From the IMG/VR virus record IMGVR_UViG_3300020055_000068, positions 1 through 35,373 of that record: DNA of 35,373 bases; one strand, given 5' to 3'. The DNA is from a virus. A program made the translations under genes and the position numbers. The notes under the pieces were generated by a model. The model was not told where the DNA came from. It was given only the letters and a program-made list of their open reading frames with translations, and ran no database searches. Positions 17,186 to 35,373 of the stretch are shown in pieces; the stretch's first letter is position 1, and every line of letters begins with the position of its first letter.

Positions 17186-20100
17186 TTAATCTAATCTCTC
17201 AATAATTGATCCAGTTTGTCTCAGTCCCTGACTTCTTCTTTGAATTGTTGGGAAAGTTGATAATCCAACATCTACAGTTTTTCCGGTGACTGCAATTGAA
17301 ATTGGTCCAGATGATCTTTGAGTGATGTTAAGACGACCCCAAGAAAATTCTCCAACAATGTCTCCACTTACAGGTAAACTTGAAGTGTCTGTAGAAGAAG
17401 ATATATTGCATGTTGCAATACCATTTAATCCCCCATCATCACTTATTTGGTGTACATAGTAAATATTATCAAAGAAAGCAGTTCCTATTGCAACAACATC
17501 AGAATCTGTAGAGTCAACAGAAACTGCACCAGATCCAACATTAGTATTTTTAACTAAAATTGGATATCCAACTGATAAAGTATTAGTACCATTGTTGAAT
17601 ACTCCAGAAGTTTTAAGATTGAATTTGAGTGCTGATTGTCCACCATTTGTAGTTGCTTCTATTCCTGTTATGATTCCGGAGAATCCCTTAACACTATTAA
17701 TAGCAGAAATACTTTCTATATTTGACTCTGGTGCTGGAACTATAGTTAAAGGTTCAGTTGTATATCCCAATCCTGGATTTGTTATTGTGGGGGATGTAAG
17801 TGATCCAGAACTATTAACAGTGATGGTTGCTGTAGCAGTTGTACCAACACCAACACCTATTGTTAATGGTGCGGCAAATCCAATATTAATTGTTGCACCA
17901 GGTTCATATCCAGATCCAGAATTTGTGATAGACAATCCATTAACCTTTCCACCAGAAATAGTTGCAGTTACTTCTCCCTTGGAAGTTTCTTTGTTATCAA
18001 CAAGAATTGCACTAAATGGATCTGGACTATCATAATCAAATAAGTCTGCATCATCAACAAATAGTTCTGTATCTGATGTTGAGAAACTATCAATTACTTT
18101 TGCAGTTGGATAAATTTGAGATATAATTGATTGTCTTGTTTTATAAACAAATTCTCCATTTATAATTCTGTCACTTTTTTGTTTCGTCCAAGACATTGGT
18201 TTTGGATTTGATATGTCGATTCCCTGGGAGGTATACGGATTTGTCTCAAATTTATCAGAGAAAGAGAGATCGAAAACAGTTCTCTGATTCTGAGTCTCAG
18301 TTCCATTAATATTATTATTTTTATATACTCTAACAAAATCTCCTTTTTCTAGAGTTGGCAATACATTTGTAACCAAAAGATCATCTAAACCTCTAGTTCC
18401 TCTATAGAAAAATACTGCAATATTATCTTCTGGTTTGGGAGCTGTCGAGAAAGTAAATGATGTTCCACCTTCAAAGGTATATGAAACTCCTGGATCTTGC
18501 AATACTCCATTGATGAAAATGATGAGAGAATTTGCTAATTCGATAGAAGTATTATCTTCAGATAATTCAAAACTCAATAAAGATGAATTATAGAACAATG
18601 GGAAAGTAACTCTAACTCCATCTTGATAATTCTTCAAAGAATCTATGAAGTCCAATTCACCAAATTGCCATGCTCCAAAATTATCACTAAATGTGTCTAA
18701 AACGGTTAGTTGGAATTGTGATAATGGTGAAGACAATCTACCATCAGTTACCAATCCAACAGGAGTGAATATATCTCCCCTTCTAAAGGAGTATCCATTT
18801 CTCTTAATTGAGAAATTTGTAACCTCAAAATAAGTTGATCCAATTCCTGTGGTAGAACTTGCTCCAACCTCAACATCCAGAAGTAATCCTATTCCAGACT
18901 CTGTAGTTGATCCAACACCAAGTCTAGAAATTCCAGTTATCTCAAGATTTTCATATGAAGGTTCTGAGACATAAATCCTAGTTTCATCAGAGTATCCTCC
19001 TCCACCATTCGTTACATTAAATGATAATGTTCCACCAGCTCCTACAGATGCACTTATTAGTGCTCCACTACCAGCACCAGTTGGGTCAAAGGCAGTAACA
19101 CCAATTGATATTACATTATTGTATCCAGATCCACTAATGTCTGTTGTTCCAATACCAATACTATTCTGTATTACTCCACCACTAATTACTGCAGTAACTG
19201 CAGCACCTGCCAGAGGTGCATATCCAAGTCCACCACTAGATCCTAAAGAAACAATTATTCCACCTCTAGGTAATTGGTTTTGATTTACATCACTCTCTAT
19301 AATTAAATTACTATTAGGATCATCGATATCTGTTCTGATGCCACTGAATACTATAGAAGAAATACCAATTACGGAATTATCAATTATTTGGAAATTATTT
19401 TCTGGATTATTTGAAGTTGTTGGTGTTTGGAAGATTCCATTTAGGAAAACTATACCGTTTCCACCAGTTGATCCAATTCCAGTTGTATTTGCTCCACCAA
19501 CAGTCAATGTAAAGGTTCTTCCAATTCCGGTAAATTCATCAGAAATATCATCGTAAACCTGGCTAGTATCATAATTACTTCTCAAGAATACTCTACCAGT
19601 AAAATCTGAAGTTTCTTGTACTAAATTGTTACCATCTCTTACTATTGTTGGATTTCCTCTAGGTGGTTTTGTGAAATATATTTCATCACCAACAATATCA
19701 TAAGAACCTTTGTATATTCTAGTAGGAGTTGTATTAGTATGAGATGATGCAGATGATCCAACAAAACCTCTCTCAACTTCAACTAATAATTCCGATCCGG
19801 TGTTAGTGATAGGTCCAACATCAACTGTCCCTAAACCAACATTTACAATATTCATATATTCATCATCAATTCTAAGAATATCTAAAGGATTGATGGTGCT
19901 TATTCCACTCAATGTAAAAAATGTATCTGTTTCGGAAATATTCTTTGTAAGATTTTGACTTATTTTAGTAAATGCAATTGGATATTGAACAATGTTATCA
20001 ATTGTAATAATCGATTTCTCATTTCTCTTTGCCATTGCAAATTTATGAGCATTTCCCTCTCCTACAGAAGCGAAGGTTACCGGAGATCCAGATCTTGTGG

Positions 20101-23100
20101 TGGATATTTGGAAATTATTAGTATTTCCGGATCCAACAACTGCGAAAACTTGAGAAGGAAGTTCGGCAACAAATGATCCATTATCGAAGAGCATTGAAGT
20201 AGATCCTACACCAACAAATGTGGATCCTGGAGTATAAACCAATTCTTCTCCATTACTAAAGAAGTTATTCTCTATTGTAAATGTTCCAGTTGAGGCATTT
20301 AATACATTCGATTTTGATGGATTAAATGTTTTTGCAAAAATTGGTGTATTGTTATTGTTGAGTTTAAAATTGACTCTATTCGTTCTATCTCCATTAATTG
20401 CGAAATATGCAGTTGATTTTACAGATTCATTTGAGAATCCAAAATTCAAATCCAAATATTGATTACTAAAATCTACAGTTTTATATAAACACTCATTGAG
20501 TGATAATAAGTCTATATTTCCAGTAAAGTTTGAATCTGGATAGAATTTTAATTCAAAATTATCAGTTCCTACATATTCACCACCAAATGTTCCTATGCCA
20601 ATTGTACTACCAATTGAAATGATGGAATACTGTTGAGTGTATATGTCAGTTCCATCTTGAACCAAAAATACTTGATGAGTAGACTTGGTTGATCCAGTAG
20701 TAATTTCAACTATAGAATTTACAGCATCAAATAAATTTTTATCTAAAGAAACTACAGTTGTTGATAATCCAGAACTGGTGCTATACTTTATAGATTCATA
20801 AATTGCAGACCTTTCCGACCCTTCTGGTTGAGCATCTGCTAAAAATCTATATGTGCTCCCTATACCGACTCCTGGAGGTGTGCTAAATCCAATAGATCTA
20901 GAGTCAATTGTAATATCTAAAGAAGAATCATTGTAGTAATCTAATGATAATGTTCCAGAAGAAATATTTGCAGTAAATCCAACTCCAATCTGATCAAAAG
21001 ATGCTCCTGAAACCAAATCATTTGCAATATAGTACTCTGATATATTTGTATTAGTTCCATCATGTGTGACATACAATTCAACAAAATTAATTTCATTTGT
21101 CACACTTTGAATTATATTTGCACTTACAAAGAACGACGAAATATCACTAGCAGAGAATTCCAGTACCGTAGAAGTTGTTCCTGAAGATACCTCACTTCTA
21201 TTTGAAGTCAAGTCAACAAATCCAACCGAGGTTGTTCCTATTCCTGTTCCAGAAATAAATCTCTTTTCAATATACTTAATATCATATTCTGTATTAAAAG
21301 GATCCTCTGGAGTAAACCTTAAATATCTCTCACCAAATGAATTAGACTCAATTGAGAAATCTCCATATTGGGTATTAGATGTTAGATTTGTTAAAGATTG
21401 TTTTTCAAGAATGAAAGAATTATTTTTTATATTGTCATTTACAATGATGACATTTGTTAATTGAATTTCATTTCCACTAAGATCTGAAACTTTTATCAAA
21501 TAGTTTAGATAGGAATCTGTATTGTCTAATTCAACAAAATCTACATATGGATTTGGTTCTGAGTCAAAGTTTGAAAACTGACTACTAATATCATCAATTC
21601 TCAATACTATATTTGATCCAATCTCAGTGAAGTTTGTTAATTTTTTATTCAGAAGTTTAATGAATTTGGATTTTTCACTAAATGTATCAATATCTTTTAC
21701 AAAATCAAAAATATTAATTGTATCTACTCTATTCTCGGAGAAATAATCTTTAATGACTGTGGTTTGATCTGTTCCCCCCAAACCGATTTTATCTGCTACT
21801 GTGAGTATTTCGGTATCGGAGAAGTTTTTCAATCCTGATATATGAACTAAACTATTAACAGGAGTTCTAATGTCTTTCCATTGTTGACTGCTCTTCACAG
21901 AGTATGACAAATTCTGATAATAGTCATTGTCTGACAATACCTGATGATCTTCATTCAATTTACCAATTTCATCAGTCCATCCTTGATTCTTCTTAGAAGA
22001 ATAATCAATATCAAAATTTCCAGAATAGTTGATTATTGATTTTATTATCGCACTGTTTCCAGATAGTTTACCACTAATCTTTTCATTTACAGACAAATCA
22101 TAACTACCAGCAAGTTTAAGTGGAGTATTAATATCATGATTAACAACTGATAAGTCTCTTTCTATACCATTTGATATTAAAGTTTCCCCAATAGTAAAGA
22201 ATGATGGCTCTATAGTGGTTTCAAAAACTGGATAGTCATTTTTATTAATAACTACTCCAAAAGAATCTTGAATTGTTTTTGCTATTCCAGTATTTGTTGT
22301 TAAATTGGAAACATCAATAGTAACTTGATGATCTGCAAATGAAGTATCATAAGATTTTACATTTAAAAATTTATATCCATAATCACTAGAATTAAATCCG
22401 TCACCATCTGAACTAAATTTTTGTATTCCTTCAATGAATACTTGATCACCCGCTTTAAATGGATTCTCTGAGAATCCTGATAATGGAGTTGTTATAGAAC
22501 ATGTAAATATTCCAGTAGGGGTTGATGTAACTTCCTTAATACTAATTCCATTCGAATTATTAACTGTGAATAATTCCACACCTGCATCAGAAATTCCTTT
22601 AGTTGCAACTTCAATGTCAACAGTAGATATTGAAGTTGCAACAATATCTGGAACTAATAATCCATTTCTAACTGCTTCTCTAGTATCTGAATTCACTGCA
22701 ACAATGTCTGGAGCAACTACAAAACCCTTTCCACCATCAACTACATTAACATTGGCAATTTTATTTGATGACTCTAATGAAAGTTTTGGTGAGATAAAGG
22801 TTTGTGGTTCTAAAGTTCTATCCGAAGAATATTCAAATCCTTGGTTAATAACTCTAACCGATTCTATATTTCCAATATTATTTGATTTTATATTTACTGC
22901 AAGATTTTCTCCATTATCAGATTCTATTCTATCCAGTACCGGAAGAGAAATATATCCACTACCACCAGAGATTAATTTTATTTTTTCTGCCGGTCCAGAA
23001 GCAGAGGTTGAAGTTGTAAAATATTCAAAAATATCACAATCAGACTTTACATATGATGATTTTTCTGGTTTATTCTCTAATGAAATCTTGAATGTCGTTA

Positions 23101-26100
23101 TTCCAACGTCAGAAACTTTATATTCTCCATTATAATTACTATCAATATAAGAAATTTCAGAATGATTTAAAACATCTTTATCAGAAGTGCTTATGTATCC
23201 AGATTTTTCCAGACTATAATATAAATTTTGTGGAAAATTAGATGAATAATTGATTGTTAGAGATGCAGTTGATGCTATTCCAACTGTTCCAACACCAGAA
23301 ATATTAAACGATGAGGTTGATCCAGTAGAAACAAACTCATTATTAAATTCTTGATCATAGTAAATTTTAAATTCGTATCCACTGAGTGAAGAATCTGAAA
23401 GATCAAATACAAGATTATTATTTTTGACCGTTTGAATTTGTGGATTAATTAATGAAATAGTTTGCGAAGAACTTCCTGTAGAAGCAAAACTTACCACTAT
23501 AGGTGGATTTGAATTTGCGTTCTTGAAAGTATCGCAGAATTTTATAGTATTTTCATCAACTTTATAAATGAAATATTCTTCTCCTGTTCCTAAAATATTA
23601 TCTTCATAGAAAACCTTATCACCAGTTACTAACTCATGATCGGTGATTATGATTTCATTTGTAGCTGTGCTAACCCCAGTCGAATTAAATCCAATTGGGT
23701 TTATGACAATGTTTTCAATTATCTCCTTATAAAGGACACGAACAGCTGTTGAAGTTCCAATCCCAACAGAAAGATTTGGTTTTACAGTGAGAGATATTTT
23801 ATCTCCATCCGAAAGTCCATGTGAAGTTGATACAGATACTACAGAGGTTACTTTTTCAATATCTCCAAGTTCTTGTTCATAAGTAGTTTCAAAATAATAG
23901 TCATCAAAATTTTCCCCATTACTTCTAAAGTAAACTTCACCAAATTCTGAAGTGATTCCAGTTTTAACTCCTATGGTGTTTGGTGATTTATTGACAATAT
24001 AAAGAGTTGAGTCAATTGGGAAAGAATCTGTCGGAGAATTTCCGATCGATAAAGAAGCATGTCCATTAGAATTAAAAGTAACTTTCTGATTTGTTCTGAA
24101 TGGATGATTCTCAATATACAACCTTTGGGTTGGGATATCTCTGTTTATGGATTCATTTCCAAAAGTAAATGAAGTTGAATATCCAACACCCGCAGTCGTT
24201 CCTAAACCAACAGACTCTCTAGGATTAAAATATATTTTTTCGTTCAGATTGGATTCAAAATAATCTAATTCCAAATCAATAGTAAAAGAATTATTTTTTA
24301 TGACTACAGATTCTCCAACAGTATGTGAAGTTCCAACTAAACCTCTCTTGACTCTAAGAATGTTTTTATTTGGATATACATTTAAAACTTCTAAAATTTC
24401 TGTTCCAATTCCAATACTATTTCCAGAAGATACATTTGATGGAATACTAGTAACATATATTTCAGTGCTAGTCGATCCAGATCCAACAATTTCTGTTGTA
24501 AGTCCAATAATTGGATTTGGATTGATTGTTATTTGATGATAATCATTTAATTTTGATGTTTTGGACGTACCAAAACCACTTACAGTGATGTAATCTAAGT
24601 TTTGCAAATTATGATATGGTAAAACATAACCTTTTACTTTGGATTCATTCCAAATAAAAATAGTATTTGAAAATGTTTCTATAGAAGTGTCTATTTGATT
24701 TAAAGATTTGCCCTGAATTGCTGATATTTGTGCCTTAATTTGCCCACCACCAGTATTTTCGTTGTCAAATATAAGTTCATCTCCTACTTTATAATCATCT
24801 CCAGGATTGATAATATCAAATCCGGATACTGATCCTTTAGAAATAGATTCGACTACAGTTTTTTGTCTAATAATTTCATCAGATTCAACTATAAAATTAT
24901 TGTCTGCAAAAGTTTCTGAGATATTATGTGGATAAGTGTTTCTTATTAGAGAGGAATTGTTAAAATCAAAACTTTGATTTAAAATTTCATTTTCCTGAAT
25001 TAATTTAGATCTGAAAGAATTTCCAATAAAATATGGAAACTCTGGAAGTAGAGTATCAGGATTTATGGTAGCATGATATGCATATATTCCTTCTGGAAAT
25101 TCAGGAGTTTTTGCAAATCTTCCATTATTAATATCCAAATCTCCTGATGCATCATAACGATAATCATCAACAAAAAATCCCAAATCAAATCCAGATGGCC
25201 TATCAAAAATATTAGATAGATCTTTGGAATATCCACTTGTTAATGTTTTAATTCCGAGATTTGAATCATTTGGATCATTATAACCAAATGATCCATAAAT
25301 TGGATTTCCATCATATGCCCATCCAATTATTTTTGAAAATGCACTTCCATTATCAACAAAAGTTTTTCTTATATTATCACTGTATCCCGAAATAAAATAT
25401 TGAACATTTTCCCCTCTATTTTCAAAGGTTTGATATTGGGGATTTGGTTGTGTTTTTTCTACATTATTTACATAAAGTTTTCTTACTGATGAAGTGAATT
25501 GTGCATTTGATCCACTAGAAACTACATTAATGGTACTTGATGTCGAATATCCTATTCCGGGATTTATAATCTTAACATCCGACAATTCACCATTGGAAAC
25601 AATGGCTCTTAGTTTTGCTCCAGTCCCCTTTCCACTTGGATCTCTAATTTCCAAATTTGGTACAGAGAAATATTCAAATCCACCAAACTGAAGATTGACA
25701 TCAGTAATTGATCCATTAATGATTATTGGTTCTACTTGTGCTTCTTTACCATTTTTTATAGTAAATTGTGGCAATCTTTCTTCATTTATAATAGAAGATC
25801 CATACCCAGTTCCAGTTTCATAAAGAGATAAATCTACTATTTCTCCTTTAACTACGGGAGTTAAATTTATACTATTCGATTGTGTTGTTCCAATTCCGGT
25901 TGACGTATATTCTAAAGTAACAGTTATATCTGGATATTTGAATACTTGATATCCATTTCCAGTATCTGAAAATTTAATAAACTTCTCTTGATTTAAATTT
26001 TCTGTTATAGTTCCACCTATACCAGCATCACATAACCTAAAAGAATCATCGTCAATTTTTAAAGCATAATACAAATTGGTCGTGGATATTCCTATAATAG

Positions 26101-29100
26101 GCAGTGTTCCACCAAAATCTCCAGTTACAGTTCCAGAAGAAGTGGCACCATAATAAAAATATTTTGTTAAATCAGTAGTGAAAGTACCATTAAGTCCTGG
26201 CTCACTACCAGTTCCACCCTCCACTCTCCACTTGAAGTCCATCTCATCACCGCCACCACCTTCTTCATGAACAATTCTGATTGGATAGATGACTCCAGCA
26301 GTTAAGGCAATATCACCAGTCACAGTAACAGCACCGTGACCAGTTCCCATTCCATTATCAACTACGGCATTTGCTTTTGTCCTAGTTGCACCCTCAAGAG
26401 CAAGATCACCTATCCAAACACCACTTCCATCATCAGATCTAGTACTAAATCGATAAGTACCTGATACTGGTGGTATGAAATATCCTATTCCAATCCAACC
26501 ATAATTATTTCCTATGCTAGGACCAAAATCAATATAGGGCCATACCTTTACACCAAATCTATAAGAGGCATCCGGCATTCCAGCAGATCCCGTCACATTA
26601 CTACTATCATTATCAGTAGTAAGAGGTATTGTTCCTATATTACCTGTTGATATAACAGATCTCCAAGAAGTTCCGTTAAAGAATTTTCCTGCAATTCCAC
26701 CTACTTTTATTTGTTGAGATGAATCTTGAGCTCCAGCATACTCTACAAGTTCACCACTCTTAAATCCATGATTTTTGAAATTAACTAAATTATTTGTCGT
26801 AGATATTCCTGACGATTTTACATAAAGTTCTCTATTAGTTAAGGATCCTCCATCAACAACTTTAATTTCAGAAACAGTTTTTCTGAAATTTCCTGTGGTA
26901 AACTTATGAGTTCCACTAAGACTAGTCGTTGCAAATGAAATTGGATTATTAACCAGATAATTATCATATGAATCAAACAATCTGATAGTGGTATTATTAT
27001 CTACCGCAATGAAATATGAAGATTGATTAGTCAATGAAGACAATCCAATTCCTATACTTACATTTGGATTGTCATTATTATTATAAAATACTTCATCACC
27101 ATCAGATAAATTATGATTTTTTAGGAAAGTTAACTGTGAAGTTGTTGTACTTATTCCTCCACCATTACTTGTAGATCTAGCATCAAAAAGAATTTCTCTT
27201 TTTCTTGTTGTTACAATAGGCTCAAATTTTCCTCCAGATACATTACCACCAGATACATTTACTGATAAAACTTCATCAATGTCAAATTCTTGTTGATCTA
27301 CAAATATTTCAGTTATTGTCCCACTCAAAATTGGGTTTACTAAAGCAGTACTACCCAATCCAGAAGATATTTCTATTTGTGGAGGATTTATGACATCATA
27401 TCCACTTCCACTGTTTAGGACTGATACACTATCAATAGGTCCATAGTAAATTATATCAGTTGTTTTATAATTTAAAATTTCAACACCATTTATCAACATT
27501 CCAGTCGATCCTGGCAAAGTATCTTCATTGGTTCCATTTTCAATATTTTGATACAATGGGAACTTCTTTAAAATATTTTGAGAATTTAATAATCTATTAT
27601 TTTGAGAATCTATTGTAAATATGTGAGATGACAATTCTGTCAATGGATTGGATATCTTCAAAACATTAGAAGATTTGCCAACAGAAGAAGATGCTGAATA
27701 TAATTTTATATTTTTGCGATTTGCCAAAACTTCAACATAATAAAATCCAACTTCCAATCCTCCTAAGGTTTCATTTTGAGTTGGTTGATAATAAATTCTG
27801 TCTCCAGTAACAAAATCTACATCTTTGTCAAAAGAAATAGTAGTAAATCCATCAACATCAAAATCTGTAAGTTGTCCTGCAGGTGAATTGGGATCAAGAT
27901 TTAAAATCGATTCATTTAGAGAAATTTTAATGTTGTGAGTGAAATCTGTATACGCAACTCCAGCAGAGGGAAGAGAATTTGATGCAACATATGCAAAATC
28001 ACCATCACTATACAAATTCTGAATATCAGAAATTATGGTATCATTACCATACTTAAATTCTGTATATTCACTGTTGGATTTATTGATTCTTCTTCTTAAG
28101 GAATATAATGTGTTTGCTCCTGGAATAAAAGAAAAATTTTCAAGGATAACAGTTTTTGATCCGAAAGATATTGATTGTTTTACATAAGGAATATCATCCG
28201 TTGTTGGATATACAACACTATTAGTTGATCTATCAATTATTTCAACTTGATCTCCTTTTTTTAGTTGTGATCTATCTACCGATTTTTTCAGAGTTATAGT
28301 AGATCCTGAGAAAGAATCAATTTCTATTGAAGAACTTGAATTATAAATCCATGAGTTTGCAAATATTTGCTTGTAAGTTTTTTCTTCACCAGGACCAAAA
28401 TTTTCTATTTTATCTCCAATATTTCTTACAGTTAAAATTTGACCTTCAGATGCAAAAACAGAACTTGATTTTTGTTTAAAATCTGAAATAATACCAGTCA
28501 ATCTCAACTGAACTAGTTTATCTGTTTCTCCATTCTCATATCCAAAATAAATTTTTTCCTGAGAAAAGATATTATCAGTTTTATTAATCGTTTCGGATAT
28601 TCCATTACAACCTAAAAATTGATTAATATTTTTCTCAGTATATGTGATTACATTATTTCCAGATTGAATAGTTCCACTTTCACTGAATCCAATTGTAGAG
28701 TCTACTGTAATTACAGTAGATCCAGGAGTCACCTCATCAAAACTTTTTGTATTAGGTGTAATTTCAAATGTTCCTTGAATTGCACTTGACTCAGAATATC
28801 CAACAAATAGTGCTAACTTATAATATTCTACTCCTTTTCTTGTAAAGATATCTACCTCTGATATTGAGGCATTCGTATCCGCATCATCACTCTTAAATAT
28901 TGTTTGACCAATAAGATTTAAAGGATTTCCAGTTATTGCCTCTGCAATAACAATCTCACGTCTAATAAATTCTGCAGAAGATGGTTTTAAAAGTCTTTCT
29001 TCTAAGTTGATGACTTTCGGATCTTCTCCAAATAAAATTCTGAACAAAATTTCGAAAGAATTTTCTGTTCCCTTTGACTCATAGAAATTTTTAGCCTGTT

Positions 29101-29683
29101 TTATAAAATTCCCTGCATCTAGATCAGATACAAATTGCCTTTCTTCAAATCCTGGAGCAAAAGTATATTTTAGTTTTCTATAAAACTCTTTGAGAAATAA
29201 TGAACTTAAGTTTTCAACACTGACACCTCCACTATGAGAACTAGCAGTTGAAGAGGAGAATACTAACTCTTCTTCATCTAATTCTGCATGATAACTAGTA
29301 ATCCCCGAGAATCCACGAACACATCCAGTAAAAGATAAATCATCTTTTCCAGTGTATGTAATAATCTCATCATCAATTTTCAATAAACCATATTTTTCTG
29401 GAAATCCACTGGTGCTGGAAACATATATTACTGAAGAATCGGATTCAATATCAAATGACAATTCGGTAGATCCGACAATTACATCTGGAGTTAAATTATC
29501 TAATTTTAAATATTGATCTAAATTTTCAACAATATTTGTCGGAGCACCTTGAAATTCTTGAGAAATATAATATTGCTTAAGAAAATCAAGAGTCTTTGGA
29601 CTCTCTGCCATGATAAAATCTGGCAGTTGATTAATTAAAATATCTTGTACTTTTACTCTAGATTCAAATCCAGTATGTATCAT
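17186..29683 (-). CDS. gp7: Giant baseplate wedge protein, T4 gp7-like, with adhesin-like insertion (4165 aa)
   Basis: It lies between gp6 and gp8 exactly where T4 has gp7 (1032 aa), but is four times as long. The N-terminal 230 residues look like the baseplate-anchoring part (FESRVKVQDILINQLPDFIM; FLKEFYRKLKYTFAPGFEER; NFYESKGTENSFEILFRILFGED). The rest is mainly beta modules: at least ten GSGY/GLGY-type repeats, RG..GT..H modules (CVRGFSGITSYH; VKRGLVGTSHTVGE; VERGFVGSSASSH), and an NGVLQDPGVSYTFEGG fibre-type module near residue 3720. At about residues 1025-1180 there is a PA14/GLEYA-like domain. It starts 1 base after the gp6 stop. The protein probably combines a wedge core with a large peripheral, host-facing structure. 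Assignment to gp7 rests on position and N terminus. Confidence 0.85.
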   Translation of the reverse strand: MIHTGFESRVKVQDILINQLPDFIMAESPKTLDFLKQYYISQEFQGAPTNIVENLDQYLKLDNLTPDVIVGSTELSFDIESDSSVIYVSSTSGFPEKYGLLKIDDEIITYTGKDDLSFTGCVRGFSGITSYHAELDEEELVFSSSTASSHSGGVSVENLSSLFLKEFYRKLKYTFAPGFEERQFVSDLDAGNFIKQAKNFYESKGTENSFEILFRILFGEDPKVINLEERLLKPSSAEFIRREIVIAEAITGNPLNLIGQTIFKSDDADTNASISEVDIFTRKGVEYYKLALFVGYSESSAIQGTFEITPNTKSFDEVTPGSTVITVDSTIGFSESGTIQSGNNVITYTEKNINQFLGCNGISETINKTDNIFSQEKIYFGYENGETDKLVQLRLTGIISDFKQKSSSVFASEGQILTVRNIGDKIENFGPGEEKTYKQIFANSWIYNSSSSIEIDSFSGSTITLKKSVDRSQLKKGDQVEIIDRSTNSVVYPTTDDIPYVKQSISFGSKTVILENFSFIPGANTLYSLRRRINKSNSEYTEFKYGNDTIISDIQNLYSDGDFAYVASNSLPSAGVAYTDFTHNIKISLNESILNLDPNSPAGQLTDFDVDGFTTISFDKDVDFVTGDRIYYQPTQNETLGGLEVGFYYVEVLANRKNIKLYSASSSVGKSSNVLKISNPLTELSSHIFTIDSQNNRLLNSQNILKKFPLYQNIENGTNEDTLPGSTGMLINGVEILNYKTTDIIYYGPIDSVSVLNSGSGYDVINPPQIEISSGLGSTALVNPILSGTITEIFVDQQEFDIDEVLSVNVSGGNVSGGKFEPIVTTRKREILFDARSTSNGGGISTTTSQLTFLKNHNLSDGDEVFYNNNDNPNVSIGIGLSSLTNQSSYFIAVDNNTTIRLFDSYDNYLVNNPISFATTSLSGTHKFTTGNFRKTVSEIKVVDGGSLTNRELYVKSSGISTTNNLVNFKNHGFKSGELVEYAGAQDSSQQIKVGGIAGKFFNGTSWRSVISTGNIGTIPLTTDNDSSNVTGSAGMPDASYRFGVKVWPYIDFGPSIGNNYGWIGIGYFIPPVSGTYRFSTRSDDGSGVWIGDLALEGATRTKANAVVDNGMGTGHGAVTVTGDIALTAGVIYPIRIVHEEGGGGDEMDFKWRVEGGTGSEPGLNGTFTTDLTKYFYYGATSSGTVTGDFGGTLPIIGISTTNLYYALKIDDDSFRLCDAGIGGTITENLNQEKFIKFSDTGNGYQVFKYPDITVTLEYTSTGIGTTQSNSINLTPVVKGEIVDLSLYETGTGYGSSIINEERLPQFTIKNGKEAQVEPIIINGSITDVNLQFGGFEYFSVPNLEIRDPSGKGTGAKLRAIVSNGELSDVKIINPGIGYSTSSTINVVSSGSNAQFTSSVRKLYVNNVEKTQPNPQYQTFENRGENVQYFISGYSDNIRKTFVDNGSAFSKIIGWAYDGNPIYGSFGYNDPNDSNLGIKTLTSGYSKDLSNIFDRPSGFDLGFFVDDYRYDASGDLDINNGRFAKTPEFPEGIYAYHATINPDTLLPEFPYFIGNSFRSKLIQENEILNQSFDFNNSSLIRNTYPHNISETFADNNFIVESDEIIRQKTVVESISKGSVSGFDIINPGDDYKVGDELIFDNENTGGGQIKAQISAIQGKSLNQIDTSIETFSNTIFIWNESKVKGYVLPYHNLQNLDYITVSGFGTSKTSKLNDYHQITINPNPIIGLTTEIVGSGSTSTEIYVTSIPSNVSSGNSIGIGTEILEVLNVYPNKNILRVKRGLVGTSHTVGESVVIKNNSFTIDLELDYFESNLNEKIYFNPRESVGLGTTAGVGYSTSFTFGNESINRDIPTQRLYIENHPFRTNQKVTFNSNGHASLSIGNSPTDSFPIDSTLYIVNKSPNTIGVKTGITSEFGEVYFRSNGENFDDYYFETTYEQELGDIEKVTSVVSVSTSHGLSDGDKISLTVKPNLSVGIGTSTAVRVLYKEIIENIVINPIGFNSTGVSTATNEIIITDHELVTGDKVFYEDNILGTGEEYFIYKVDENTIKFCDTFKNANSNPPIVVSFASTGSSSQTISLINPQIQTVKNNNLVFDLSDSSLSGYEFKIYYDQEFNNEFVSTGSTSSFNISGVGTVGIASTASLTINYSSNFPQNLYYSLEKSGYISTSDKDVLNHSEISYIDSNYNGEYKVSDVGITTFKISLENKPEKSSYVKSDCDIFEYFTTSTSASGPAEKIKLISGGSGYISLPVLDRIESDNGENLAVNIKSNNIGNIESVRVINQGFEYSSDRTLEPQTFISPKLSLESSNKIANVNVVDGGKGFVVAPDIVAVNSDTREAVRNGLLVPDIVATSISTVDIEVATKGISDAGVELFTVNNSNGISIKEVTSTPTGIFTCSITTPLSGFSENPFKAGDQVFIEGIQKFSSDGDGFNSSDYGYKFLNVKSYDTSFADHQVTIDVSNLTTNTGIAKTIQDSFGVVINKNDYPVFETTIEPSFFTIGETLISNGIERDLSVVNHDINTPLKLAGSYDLSVNEKISGKLSGNSAIIKSIINYSGNFDIDYSSKKNQGWTDEIGKLNEDHQVLSDNDYYQNLSYSVKSSQQWKDIRTPVNSLVHISGLKNFSDTEILTVADKIGLGGTDQTTVIKDYFSENRVDTINIFDFVKDIDTFSEKSKFIKLLNKKLTNFTEIGSNIVLRIDDISSQFSNFDSEPNPYVDFVELDNTDSYLNYLIKVSDLSGNEIQLTNVIIVNDNIKNNSFILEKQSLTNLTSNTQYGDFSIESNSFGERYLRFTPEDPFNTEYDIKYIEKRFISGTGIGTTSVGFVDLTSNRSEVSSGTTSTVLEFSASDISSFFVSANIIQSVTNEINFVELYVTHDGTNTNISEYYIANDLVSGASFDQIGVGFTANISSGTLSLDYYNDSSLDITIDSRSIGFSTPPGVGIGSTYRFLADAQPEGSERSAIYESIKYSTSSGLSTTVVSLDKNLFDAVNSIVEITTGSTKSTHQVFLVQDGTDIYTQQYSIISIGSTIGIGTFGGEYVGTDNFELKFYPDSNFTGNIDLLSLNECLYKTVDFSNQYLDLNFGFSNESVKSTAYFAINGDRTNRVNFKLNNNNTPIFAKTFNPSKSNVLNASTGTFTIENNFFSNGEELVYTPGSTFVGVGSTSMLFDNGSFVAELPSQVFAVVGSGNTNNFQISTTRSGSPVTFASVGEGNAHKFAMAKRNEKSIITIDNIVQYPIAFTKISQNLTKNISETDTFFTLSGISTINPLDILRIDDEYMNIVNVGLGTVDVGPITNTGSELLVEVERGFVGSSASSHTNTTPTRIYKGSYDIVGDEIYFTKPPRGNPTIVRDGNNLVQETSDFTGRVFLRSNYDTSQVYDDISDEFTGIGRTFTLTVGGANTTGIGSTGGNGIVFLNGIFQTPTTSNNPENNFQIIDNSVIGISSIVFSGIRTDIDDPNSNLIIESDVNQNQLPRGGIIVSLGSSGGLGYAPLAGAAVTAVISGGVIQNSIGIGTTDISGSGYNNVISIGVTAFDPTGAGSGALISASVGAGGTLSFNVTNGGGGYSDETRIYVSEPSYENLEITGISRLGVGSTTESGIGLLLDVEVGASSTTGIGSTYFEVTNFSIKRNGYSFRRGDIFTPVGLVTDGRLSSPLSQFQLTVLDTFSDNFGAWQFGELDFIDSLKNYQDGVRVTFPLFYNSSLLSFELSEDNTSIELANSLIIFINGVLQDPGVSYTFEGGTSFTFSTAPKPEDNIAVFFYRGTRGLDDLLVTNVLPTLEKGDFVRVYKNNNINGTETQNQRTVFDLSFSDKFETNPYTSQGIDISNPKPMSWTKQKSDRIINGEFVYKTRQSIISQIYPTAKVIDSFSTSDTELFVDDADLFDYDSPDPFSAILVDNKETSKGEVTATISGGKVNGLSITNSGSGYEPGATINIGFAAPLTIGVGVGTTATATITVNSSGSLTSPTITNPGLGYTTEPLTIVPAPESNIESISAINSVKGFSGIITGIEATTNGGQSALKFNLKTSGVFNNGTNTLSVGYPILVKNTNVGSGAVSVDSTDSDVVAIGTAFFDNIYYVHQISDDGGLNGIATCNISSSTDTSSLPVSGDIVGEFSWGRLNITQRSSGPISIAVTGKTVDVGLSTFPTIQRRSQGLRQTGSIIERLD
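26150..26600 (-). other. PA14/GLEYA-like adhesin domain inside gp7, foreign base composition
   Basis: The coded segment contains a WIGIGYFIPPVSGTYRF strand pair, then RSDDGSGVWIGDLALEG, which matches the DDG..vWiG core of PA14/GLEYA domains. It is followed by LTAGVIYPIRIVHEEGGGGD and DFKWRVEGG, the usual second half. In fungi GLEYA domains bind cell-surface sugars; in bacteria PA14 domains occur in adhesins, glycosidases and toxins. Bases 26221-26400 are 84/180 GC by hand count, against 51/180 for three flanking 60-base rows (25981-26040, 27001-27120), so this part seems recently acquired. Confidence 0.7.
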
Positions 29684-32058: not shown

Positions 32059-32307
32059 TTATCCGTAAATTGGTTCGGTTCCATATTCCCAATCATCATA
32101 ATCTTCATCATTACGAATTTTTTTGTGCAATTCTGCCTGTTTTTTTAAATCATGTCGTTTTGGACGATCGTGCATGACTTCCCGAAGTACTAATTCTTCG
32201 GGATCATTCGTTTGTTTTGGCAATGACCAGTAATCTGATGTTAAACTTGTTGTTCCCCACATGGATTTCATAAAATCTATGTTTCTATCGACGGGTGAAT
32301 TGCCCAT
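32059..32307 (-). CDS. Conserved small acidic/basic protein (82 aa)
   Basis: The protein is hydrophilic: an N-terminal part with FMKSMWGTTSLTSDYWSLPK, then a highly charged helical stretch (HDRPKRHDLKKQAELHKKIRND) and an acidic aromatic tail (EDYDDWEYGTEPIYG). It has no membrane segment. It has a good ribosome-binding site (AGGAG, 5 bases before the ATG) that forms the foot of a 6-bp hairpin. I recognise it only as a conserved protein found beside gp25 in marine T4-like phages. Its position immediately upstream of gp25 suggests tail or baseplate assembly, but nothing in the sequence proves it. Confidence 0.75.
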   Translation of the reverse strand: MGNSPVDRNIDFMKSMWGTTSLTSDYWSLPKQTNDPEELVLREVMHDRPKRHDLKKQAELHKKIRNDEDYDDWEYGTEPIYG

Positions 32308-32332: not shown

Positions 32333-32361
32333 AACTTTTTGAGGGGTTGCTATCCCTATTT

Positions 32362-34371: not shown

Positions 34372-34400
34372 ATCATAACACTCTATCTATAATCAGTCAA
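34372..34400 (-). promoter_or_regulatory. Sigma70-like promoter TTGACT-17-TATGAT before the glycosyltransferase gene
   Basis: On the minus strand TTGACT (34400-34395) and TATGAT (34377-34372) are separated by exactly 17 bases; each matches five of six consensus bases. The expected start is near 34365, about 15 bases before the ATG at 34349. The -35 box overlaps the TGA of the AbrB-like gene. Confidence 0.6.
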
Positions 34401-34563: not shown

Positions 34564-34752
34564 ATTTTTTAATCCTCATGTCATTTTTTATATATGAAAA
34601 AATTTTTTTATGAAAGAGAAATAGAGAAGTCGATCTGGGTCGTTTATAGCTTAGAGGGACCCGTCGATTTTATATACGGGCATCGGGGCACGGCGGGCAA
34701 CACATAAGGGGGGCATATACCCCCCAACTGCTGTTATCACGAACGAATGAAC
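34564..34752. other. Noncoding gap with AT-rich leader and GC-rich stretch
   Basis: No reading frame in these 189 bases looks like a gene. Bases 34564-34620 are very AT-rich and include a gaaaaaattttttt inverted run and TATATAAAAA on the minus strand, which could hold a promoter for the AbrB-like gene. Bases 34640-34730 are unusually GC-rich for this genome and hold CCCG..CGGG (34660-34680) and the G6/C6 hairpin. I see no tRNA: no T-loop or anticodon arm could be fitted. Confidence 0.5.
34708..34725 (-). terminator. Perfect 6-bp G:C hairpin, possible terminator or RNA element
   Basis: GGGGGG, a CATATA loop and CCCCCC form a perfect 6-bp stem. It begins 28 bases downstream of the stop of the truncated right-edge gene on the transcribed strand. 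The sequence after the stem is TTATGTGTTG, not a U-run, so it is not a standard intrinsic terminator; mRNA 3'-end protection or a weak terminator are alternatives. Confidence 0.45.
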
Positions 34753-35373
34753 TTAGCAGACTGATGCATACTTATTGTTCGTGAAGTTAGCAACACTGAA
34801 GGACCGACGATTGATCAACTTAAATGTACCGAACTCATTGCTCATAACATAACCCTCACCAGAGATTCTTTCACCGTTGAGGTATGCTTCGGGACCGTTG
34901 AGTTGACGACACTGAGAACGAAGATCATCCTTCAAAACTATCATCAACCCATAGAGACGCATGAGCAACTCATTGCCTAGGAAATCGTCGTTGGTGAGTG
35001 CATAACCCTCACGGATAGAACGATTCACATTCTTCTTAATTTGTGCTGCTTCCTTATCAGTCACGAACTCAACGGTTTGCATCAGTTCTTCAATCATATT
35101 GACAACGGGAGATAACTCAAACTCTTCACCCAGTCGATCATACCAACCGGAATAAATGTAAGCATCACTCTTAACGAACTTACAGTAGGGAGTATCAGTG
35201 ATGACGAAATCTAGGGGACGTGCGATTGCATCCCGAAGGTCGGATTCGGCAGTGTAAAGTGTATGCGGAGCAATGATAATCTCCTCGGTTACGATGTTAG
35301 GGAATTTGTAAGTTATGGTGTTTGGTGTATACTCACTGTCACCACCGAAACCAATAAAATCACCCTGAAATAT
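34753..35373 (-). CDS. C-terminal part of an unrecognised phage protein (206 aa visible)
   Basis: The frame is open from the right window edge to the TAA at 34753, so the 5' end lies outside; an internal ATG at 35097 is not the true start because the upstream frame codes well (FPNIVTEEIIIAPHTLYTAE, IARPLDFVITDTPYCKFVKS). The protein is soluble and ends GEGYVMSNEFGTFKLINRRS followed by FSVANFTNNKYASVC. The EGYV..FKL pairing faintly recalls motifs IV and V of ligase-type nucleotidyltransferases, though the spacing is short; DUF6267-type cyanophage proteins are a possible match from memory only. Codon use is GC-richer than in the baseplate genes. Function is unassigned. Confidence 0.75.
   Translation of the reverse strand: MFQGDFIGFGGDSEYTPNTITYKFPNIVTEEIIIAPHTLYTAESDLRDAIARPLDFVITDTPYCKFVKSDAYIYSGWYDRLGEEFELSPVVNMIEELMQTVEFVTDKEAAQIKKNVNRSIREGYALTNDDFLGNELLMRLYGLMIVLKDDLRSQCRQLNGPEAYLNGERISGEGYVMSNEFGTFKLINRRSFSVANFTNNKYASVC

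Follow-up and report, generated by a model that had tools for sequence, protein, structure and literature searches.

A conserved non-coding module with a hairpin and promoter-like boxes upstream of phrog_661 genes in T4-like cyanophages

The promoter-early stem-loop (PeSL) elements of T4, reportedly described by Arbiol in 2010 and by Comeau in 2014, are cassettes that occur in several similar copies within one genome, with an early sigma-70 promoter within the element. A TATAAATA box is all that a T4 late promoter requires. This T4-type late promoter and its version in S-PM2, NATAAATA, are given in the portion of PMC2984593 used here, which also states that the middle transcription mode of marine T4-like cyanophages, without MotA/AsiA, is unresolved. 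For the hosts, PMC13289151 (consulted, like PMC2984593 and PMC4503421, as a partial text throughout) reports that cyanobacteria have no Rho and that canonical intrinsic terminators are missing from the ends of most transcription units studied in Synechococcus elongatus. The map of transcription control in marine T4-like cyanophages is sparse.

The window analyzed here, a stretch of viral DNA of 35,373 nt, is a fragment of a T4-like ocean cyanophage. Of the named phages in the phage collection, the Llyrvirus S-SKS1, which infects Synechococcus, is its closest relative. Every open reading frame (ORF) longer than 200 aa lies on the minus strand, including that of a 4165-aa protein with YHYH, GLEYA, and PA14 domains (17186-29683) within the baseplate gene region. 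Two terminator-like hairpins on the plus strand (32180-32203 and 32342-32357), opposite to the coding strand, lie near a phrog_3704 ferredoxin-like gene. The first-pass annotation had singled out positions 34621-34752 as a GC-rich stretch devoid of a coding frame and containing a perfect G6-CATATA-C6 hairpin, and all of this proved accurate. The stretch has 51.5% GC versus 33.5% for the whole fragment, a level reached by 0.08% of the window's 132-nt stretches, and contains no ORF of at least 50 aa. The sequence GGGGGGCATATACCCCCC is found exactly at 34708-34725 and forms the sole perfect 6-bp stem made only of G and C (loop of 3-8 nt) in the window; such a stem was seen in none of 100 first-order Markov simulations of the window. 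The gap with the hairpin is bounded on one side by the 3' end of a DUF6267 gene and on the other by a phrog_661 gene of 56 aa, and because these flanking genes are on the minus strand the hairpin, which lies 27 nt past the DUF6267 stop codon, is read as GGGGGGTATATGCCCCCC followed by TTATGTGTT. The features of the locus, in the order in which the minus strand is read, are as follows.

34753-35373, minus strand: DUF6267 (phrog_455) gene, cut by the window end; its stop codon (34753-34755) precedes the module
34727-34749, minus strand: box A, edge motif CATTCGTTCGTGATAACAGCAGT, directly 3' of the DUF6267 stop codon and conserved in relatives
34708-34725, minus strand: hairpin GGGGGGTATATGCCCCCC, the stem of a probable terminator
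34699-34707, minus strand: tail TTATGTGTT, degenerate and U-rich, with 5 U among its first 8 nt
34668-34677, minus strand: box B, GTATATAAAA, general form TATATAAAA
34637-34662, minus strand: box C, GGGTCCCTCTAAGCTATAAACGACCC, general form CCCTnTAAGCTATAAA, with its TAAGCTATAAA core about 14 nt after box B and with cross-genus matches
34582-34609, minus strand: A-tract/T-tract and then box D, CATATATAAAAA, general form TATATAAAA, adjoining the phrog_661 start codon
34393-34563, minus strand: phrog_661 gene, 56 aa, which comes after the module; weak similarity to SymE/MazE-type DNA-binding domains
34372-34400, minus strand: sigma-70-like site TTGACT-17-TATGAT (10/12, a consensus match only), upstream of a 252-aa phrog_1574 gene

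The module thus consists, on the minus strand, of box A, the hairpin, and boxes B, C, and D ahead of the phrog_661 start codon. The general form of box A is CGTTCGTGA..CAGCAGT, and the TGA within it is often the stop codon of the upstream ORF and can end upstream cargo genes; box C occurs in relatives as GGGTCCCTnTAAGCTATAAA or ACTnCCCTAAnCTAyAAAG. The CCCG...CGGG repeat that had also been pointed out (34660-34680) is real, but it is incidental, since it frames box B and is not kept in relatives. That phrog_661 encodes an AbrB/MazE-like regulator is a weak lead: the Pfam matches of the protein to SymE (E 0.03) and MazE (E 0.14) are both under the curated cut-offs, one database record, that of S-SRM01, names the homolog a DNA-binding-domain protein, and a fold search of the PDB with the AlphaFold model (pLDDT 80) gave no match with an E value of 0.001 or less. 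Relatives of phrog_1574 carry a glycosyltransferase annotation in some records, and the sigma-70-like site ahead of this gene suggests that the downstream cluster may also be read early.

Relatives of the locus were collected by protein searches with DUF6267, from which 80 viral-contig loci of 358 were kept, and with phrog_661, from which the best 80 of 94 confirmed loci were taken; the gap was compared in 40 of the 80 DUF6267 loci plus the phrog_661 set. The same order of box A, hairpin, and boxes B, C, and D was observed on the minus strand upstream of phrog_661 genes in metagenomic cyanophage relatives. Among seven named phages compared, boxes of the B, C, and D types precede the phrog_661 homolog in P-SSM2 (at about 69,080-69,250 of NC_006883), S-SRM01, Sf-CH5, S-T4, and AG-345-F15, and the module was not found at the distant homologs of S-PM2 and ACG-2014j. 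Within 191 unique upstream regions of 230 nt, the patterns of boxes D, C, and B were found in 177, 164, and 153, respectively; many of these regions are related, and of 164, 96 are left as representatives when more than six mismatches in a 65-nt stretch are required. The spacing from box B to the core of box C is 14 nt in 126 of the 153 cases and 13-15 nt in all 153, and the ATG follows box D at a distance of 28-32 or 35-38 nt in 176 of 177. Searching with boxes B and C together gave 15 places, one in each of 15 phage records, although some of the records are duplicates for a single phage; none of the places is under an annotated feature (one record is without any annotation). The module is present once in S-SKS1, in which an exact TATATAAAA occurs eight times over both strands, two of them within the module. 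This deep conservation speaks against the gap being the scar of a lost gene or tRNA, one of several origins that the first-pass annotation had offered, as does the outcome of ARAGORN, which found no tRNA in the gap, and of Rfam, which gave no family at gathering score. A landmark of replication had been proposed as well, with GC skew as the check; cumulative skew in S-SKS1 declines steadily past the site, and the detrended extrema are near 14 kb and 86 kb with the module at 145 kb, so that we rejected a replication origin or terminus for want of an extremum at the module.

The covariation check suggested with the original observation yielded zero pairs when RNAalifold was run on a MAFFT alignment, because MAFFT aligns C-runs with C-runs; given this problem of alignment register, we judged structure conservation on the hairpins of individual sequences versus shuffles, and by that measure hairpins are commoner than in shuffles. 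We took the 75 nt preceding box B from 174 loci entries, which gave 117 unique stretches, and found a best stem score of at least 18 in 92 of them versus 17.8% of dinucleotide shuffles, and in 34 of 50 less similar representatives versus 16.7%. Dinucleotide shuffles preserve GG and CC steps and are a demanding control; since G-runs and C-runs survive in them, only 41 of the 117 stretches outscore 39 of the 40 shuffles made from the stretch itself. An A-like box directly adjoins the stem in 76 of the 117 stretches, with a G-rich 5' arm in 54 and a C-rich 5' arm in 22, and there are 37 distinct arm pairs among these hairpins. The hairpin is therefore kept as a shape and not as a sequence, its arms alternating between G-run/C-run and C-run/G-run while the letters on both sides change.

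Structured RNA beyond this one hairpin, as had been conjectured, is not supported, given that the minus-strand fold of the gap is no better than its shuffles (z -0.30) and that relatives do not keep the inverted repeat used by the better plus-strand fold. It is very unlikely that the gap encodes a separate small structured RNA, possibly a plus-strand antisense RNA: the plus-strand fold of 34565-34755 does beat its shuffles (z -2.72; 3 of 200 as good), but the GGGTC...GACCC pairing that it uses is missing in many relatives, Rfam has no match, and the ORFs longer than 200 aa are all on the other strand. A transcript end is the best supported of the original suggestions in that a conserved hairpin lies 3' of the upstream gene and is accompanied by a U-rich tail in about half of the relatives. 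We applied a terminator rule modeled on PMC13289151 (at least 4 U in 8 nt and a 30-nt fold below -10 kcal/mol) to a set of 134 stretches, in which further loci had been added and the stretch was slightly longer than in the set of 117. The fold threshold was passed by 130 of the 134 regions, 214 of 402 shuffles, and 7 of 261 coding controls, and hairpin plus U-rich tail by 80 of 134 regions in the sense direction, 58 of 134 in the antisense direction, 72 of 402 shuffles, and 1 of 261 coding controls; because the antisense strand passes so often, direction is only modestly favored by that test. In the window the 30-nt stretch at the hairpin reaches -15.3 kcal/mol.

Among 83 strong hairpins with a full tail, the 9 nt after the G/C core contain at least 5 T in 44 and at most 2 T in 29, and the 9 nt before the core contain at least 5 A in none. 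Tails thus range from true U-runs, with classical runs at the equivalent site in four relatives (L042, L064, L148, and L173), to degenerate ones, and we therefore read the hairpin as probably an intrinsic terminator of variable quality, imperfect in the window, where the broken tail TTATGTGTT is evidence against a clean terminator. The many hairpins that have no U-run, the 29 poorest in T included, would also suit a structure that protects or processes the 3' end of the upstream mRNA, with read-through transcripts being cut downstream and trimmed back to the stem, and GC-rich hairpins without U-tracts are discussed as stabilized ends in E. coli in the text consulted of PMC13289151. The same text has such stabilized ends largely absent from S. 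elongatus, and the T-rich tails of the other 44 hairpins, together with the classical U-runs, are more in keeping with termination; we regard protection or processing as unlikely.

The genes upstream of the module vary. An upstream ORF could be assigned for 72 of 79 modules, and the 72 fall into 14 similarity groups, some of the small ones possibly spurious frames, with DUF6267 (21) and a 60-aa ORF (18) as the largest; 7 modules have none. The 60-aa cargo ORF, seen upstream of box A in L018, L095, L123, and other loci, has no Pfam match, and we take it to resemble HicA. The exact box A pattern was found in 51 viral stretches, of which 43 have a phrog_661-like start downstream, 4 are cut by the contig end, 3 are followed by a gene that we judged by eye to be phrog_661-like, and 1 (L316) has another ORF, so that box A precedes a phrog_661-like gene in 46 of 47 decidable cases (3 judged by eye). 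Box A is therefore a mosaic edge, and yet the module stays with one gene family. The suggestion of a recombination landmark holds to the extent that the A motif marks an edge at which upstream genes differ between phages, but neither a recombinase site nor a repeat family was found. Box C alone is less exclusive: among the 80 matches listed, 51 come with both a B-like box and an ORF, and the ORF clusters with phrog_661 in 39 of these 51. Cargo is also found after box C and before box D in two loci, L153 and L154, which have a GNAT acetyltransferase gene there and, in L153, a second gene of 138 aa without a Pfam match; a GNAT acetyltransferase gene adjoins phrog_661 in L143. Related ORFs lie directly upstream of box D in L104, L118, and L157, and the HNH_3 domain of the L157 protein suggests a homing endonuclease inserted at this spot.

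The hairpin stands beside promoter-like boxes, the genes upstream of this spot differ, and two loci have cargo between boxes C and D; this could point to a mobile cassette with a regulatory role, similar to T4 PeSL elements, whose recombining copies shuffle genes. Against this stand the single copy in the complete genome of S-SKS1, the single place in each of the 15 phage records (some of them duplicates), the bond between box A and phrog_661, and the failure of a scan to find a sigma-70-like site within 34565-34752, the nearest minus-strand match being downstream at 34400-34372. PeSL shuffling is moreover judged unlikely for the S-PM2 ORFanage region in the part of PMC4503421 consulted. We hold a PeSL-type cassette to be very unlikely here, and a dispersed mobile cassette was ruled out as the module is single-copy.

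Boxes B, C, and D have a TATAAA core and by inspection match TATAAATA at 6/8, 6/8, and 7/8 positions, respectively, keeping the TATAAA and not the TA that follows it. In S-SKS1, boxes of the TATAAATA type precede gp22 and gp25, and close variants precede gp23, gp21, and another tail gene; because boxes B, C, and D differ from these, their promoter class is uncertain. It may be that gp55 reads them as variants of late promoters, or they may be of another kind; genes for gp55 (phage sigma), gp33 (coactivator), and gp45 (clamp) are all annotated in S-SKS1.

Taking the locus as a whole, we propose that it is probably a conserved non-coding control region of the minus strand in which a terminator is backed onto promoter-like boxes, so that transcription would stop and then restart. 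RNA polymerase leaving the variable upstream block, here the DUF6267 gene, would reach the G6/C6 hairpin with its loosely U-rich tail and mostly halt there, as at an intrinsic terminator. Just downstream, the TATAAA-type pair of boxes B and C, spaced by about 14 nt, would act as promoters together with box D, read by a late or phage-modified polymerase, and restarted transcription would run into phrog_661 and then towards the baseplate cluster. The lack of Rho in cyanobacteria speaks for this reading; the rarity of canonical terminators at transcription-unit ends in S. elongatus, the uncertain promoter class, and the distant phrog_661 homologs of S-PM2 and ACG-2014j without the module speak against it. 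As a terminator-like stem the hairpin is of an ordinary kind, and the fixed B-C element is less expected. The literature searched, which takes in few subscription papers, contained no description of the module, and the promoter-like element beside the hairpin seems undescribed. Boxes B and C might even constitute a single promoter or operator in two parts (TATATAAAA, about 14 nt, TAAGCTATAAA), of a sort not described before, common to cyanophage genera and present once per genome. Such an element would be devoted to switching between the variable block and the baseplate cluster, perhaps under the control of the small phrog_661 protein, with the hairpin insulating it from the swapped upstream cargo; we offer this as a tentative idea, possible rather than probable. 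For the stop-and-restart reading, the single-copy conserved junction of putative terminator and promoter provides a defined place for testing how phage transcription stops and restarts in cyanobacterial hosts, and it marks where cargo genes swap without disturbing the downstream block. Most deserving of an experiment is this conserved module, in particular its spaced B-C pair, which cyanophages of different genera have once per genome.

Compared with intrinsic terminators, the module has a GC-rich stem-loop 3' of a gene and, in many relatives, a U-rich tail, and the window satisfies the rule modeled on the available portion of PMC13289151; unlike them, its tail in the window is broken, and termination here is deduced from sequence. 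Like the T4 PeSL elements as portrayed in the excerpt of PMC4503421, it is intergenic and joins a stem-loop to promoter-like signals among variable neighboring genes. It differs from them in being single-copy per genome, in being tied to one downstream gene family, and in the lack of a detectable sigma-70-type early promoter inside, and with one copy in S-SKS1 and no such internal site it fails two features of the T4 PeSL elements. With T4-type late promoters it shares the TATAAA core of boxes B, C, and D and a downstream cluster that includes baseplate gp25, whereas the bases after TATAAA differ from TATAAATA, and boxes B and C form a spaced pair whose fixed spacing is unexpected for a simple T4 late promoter.
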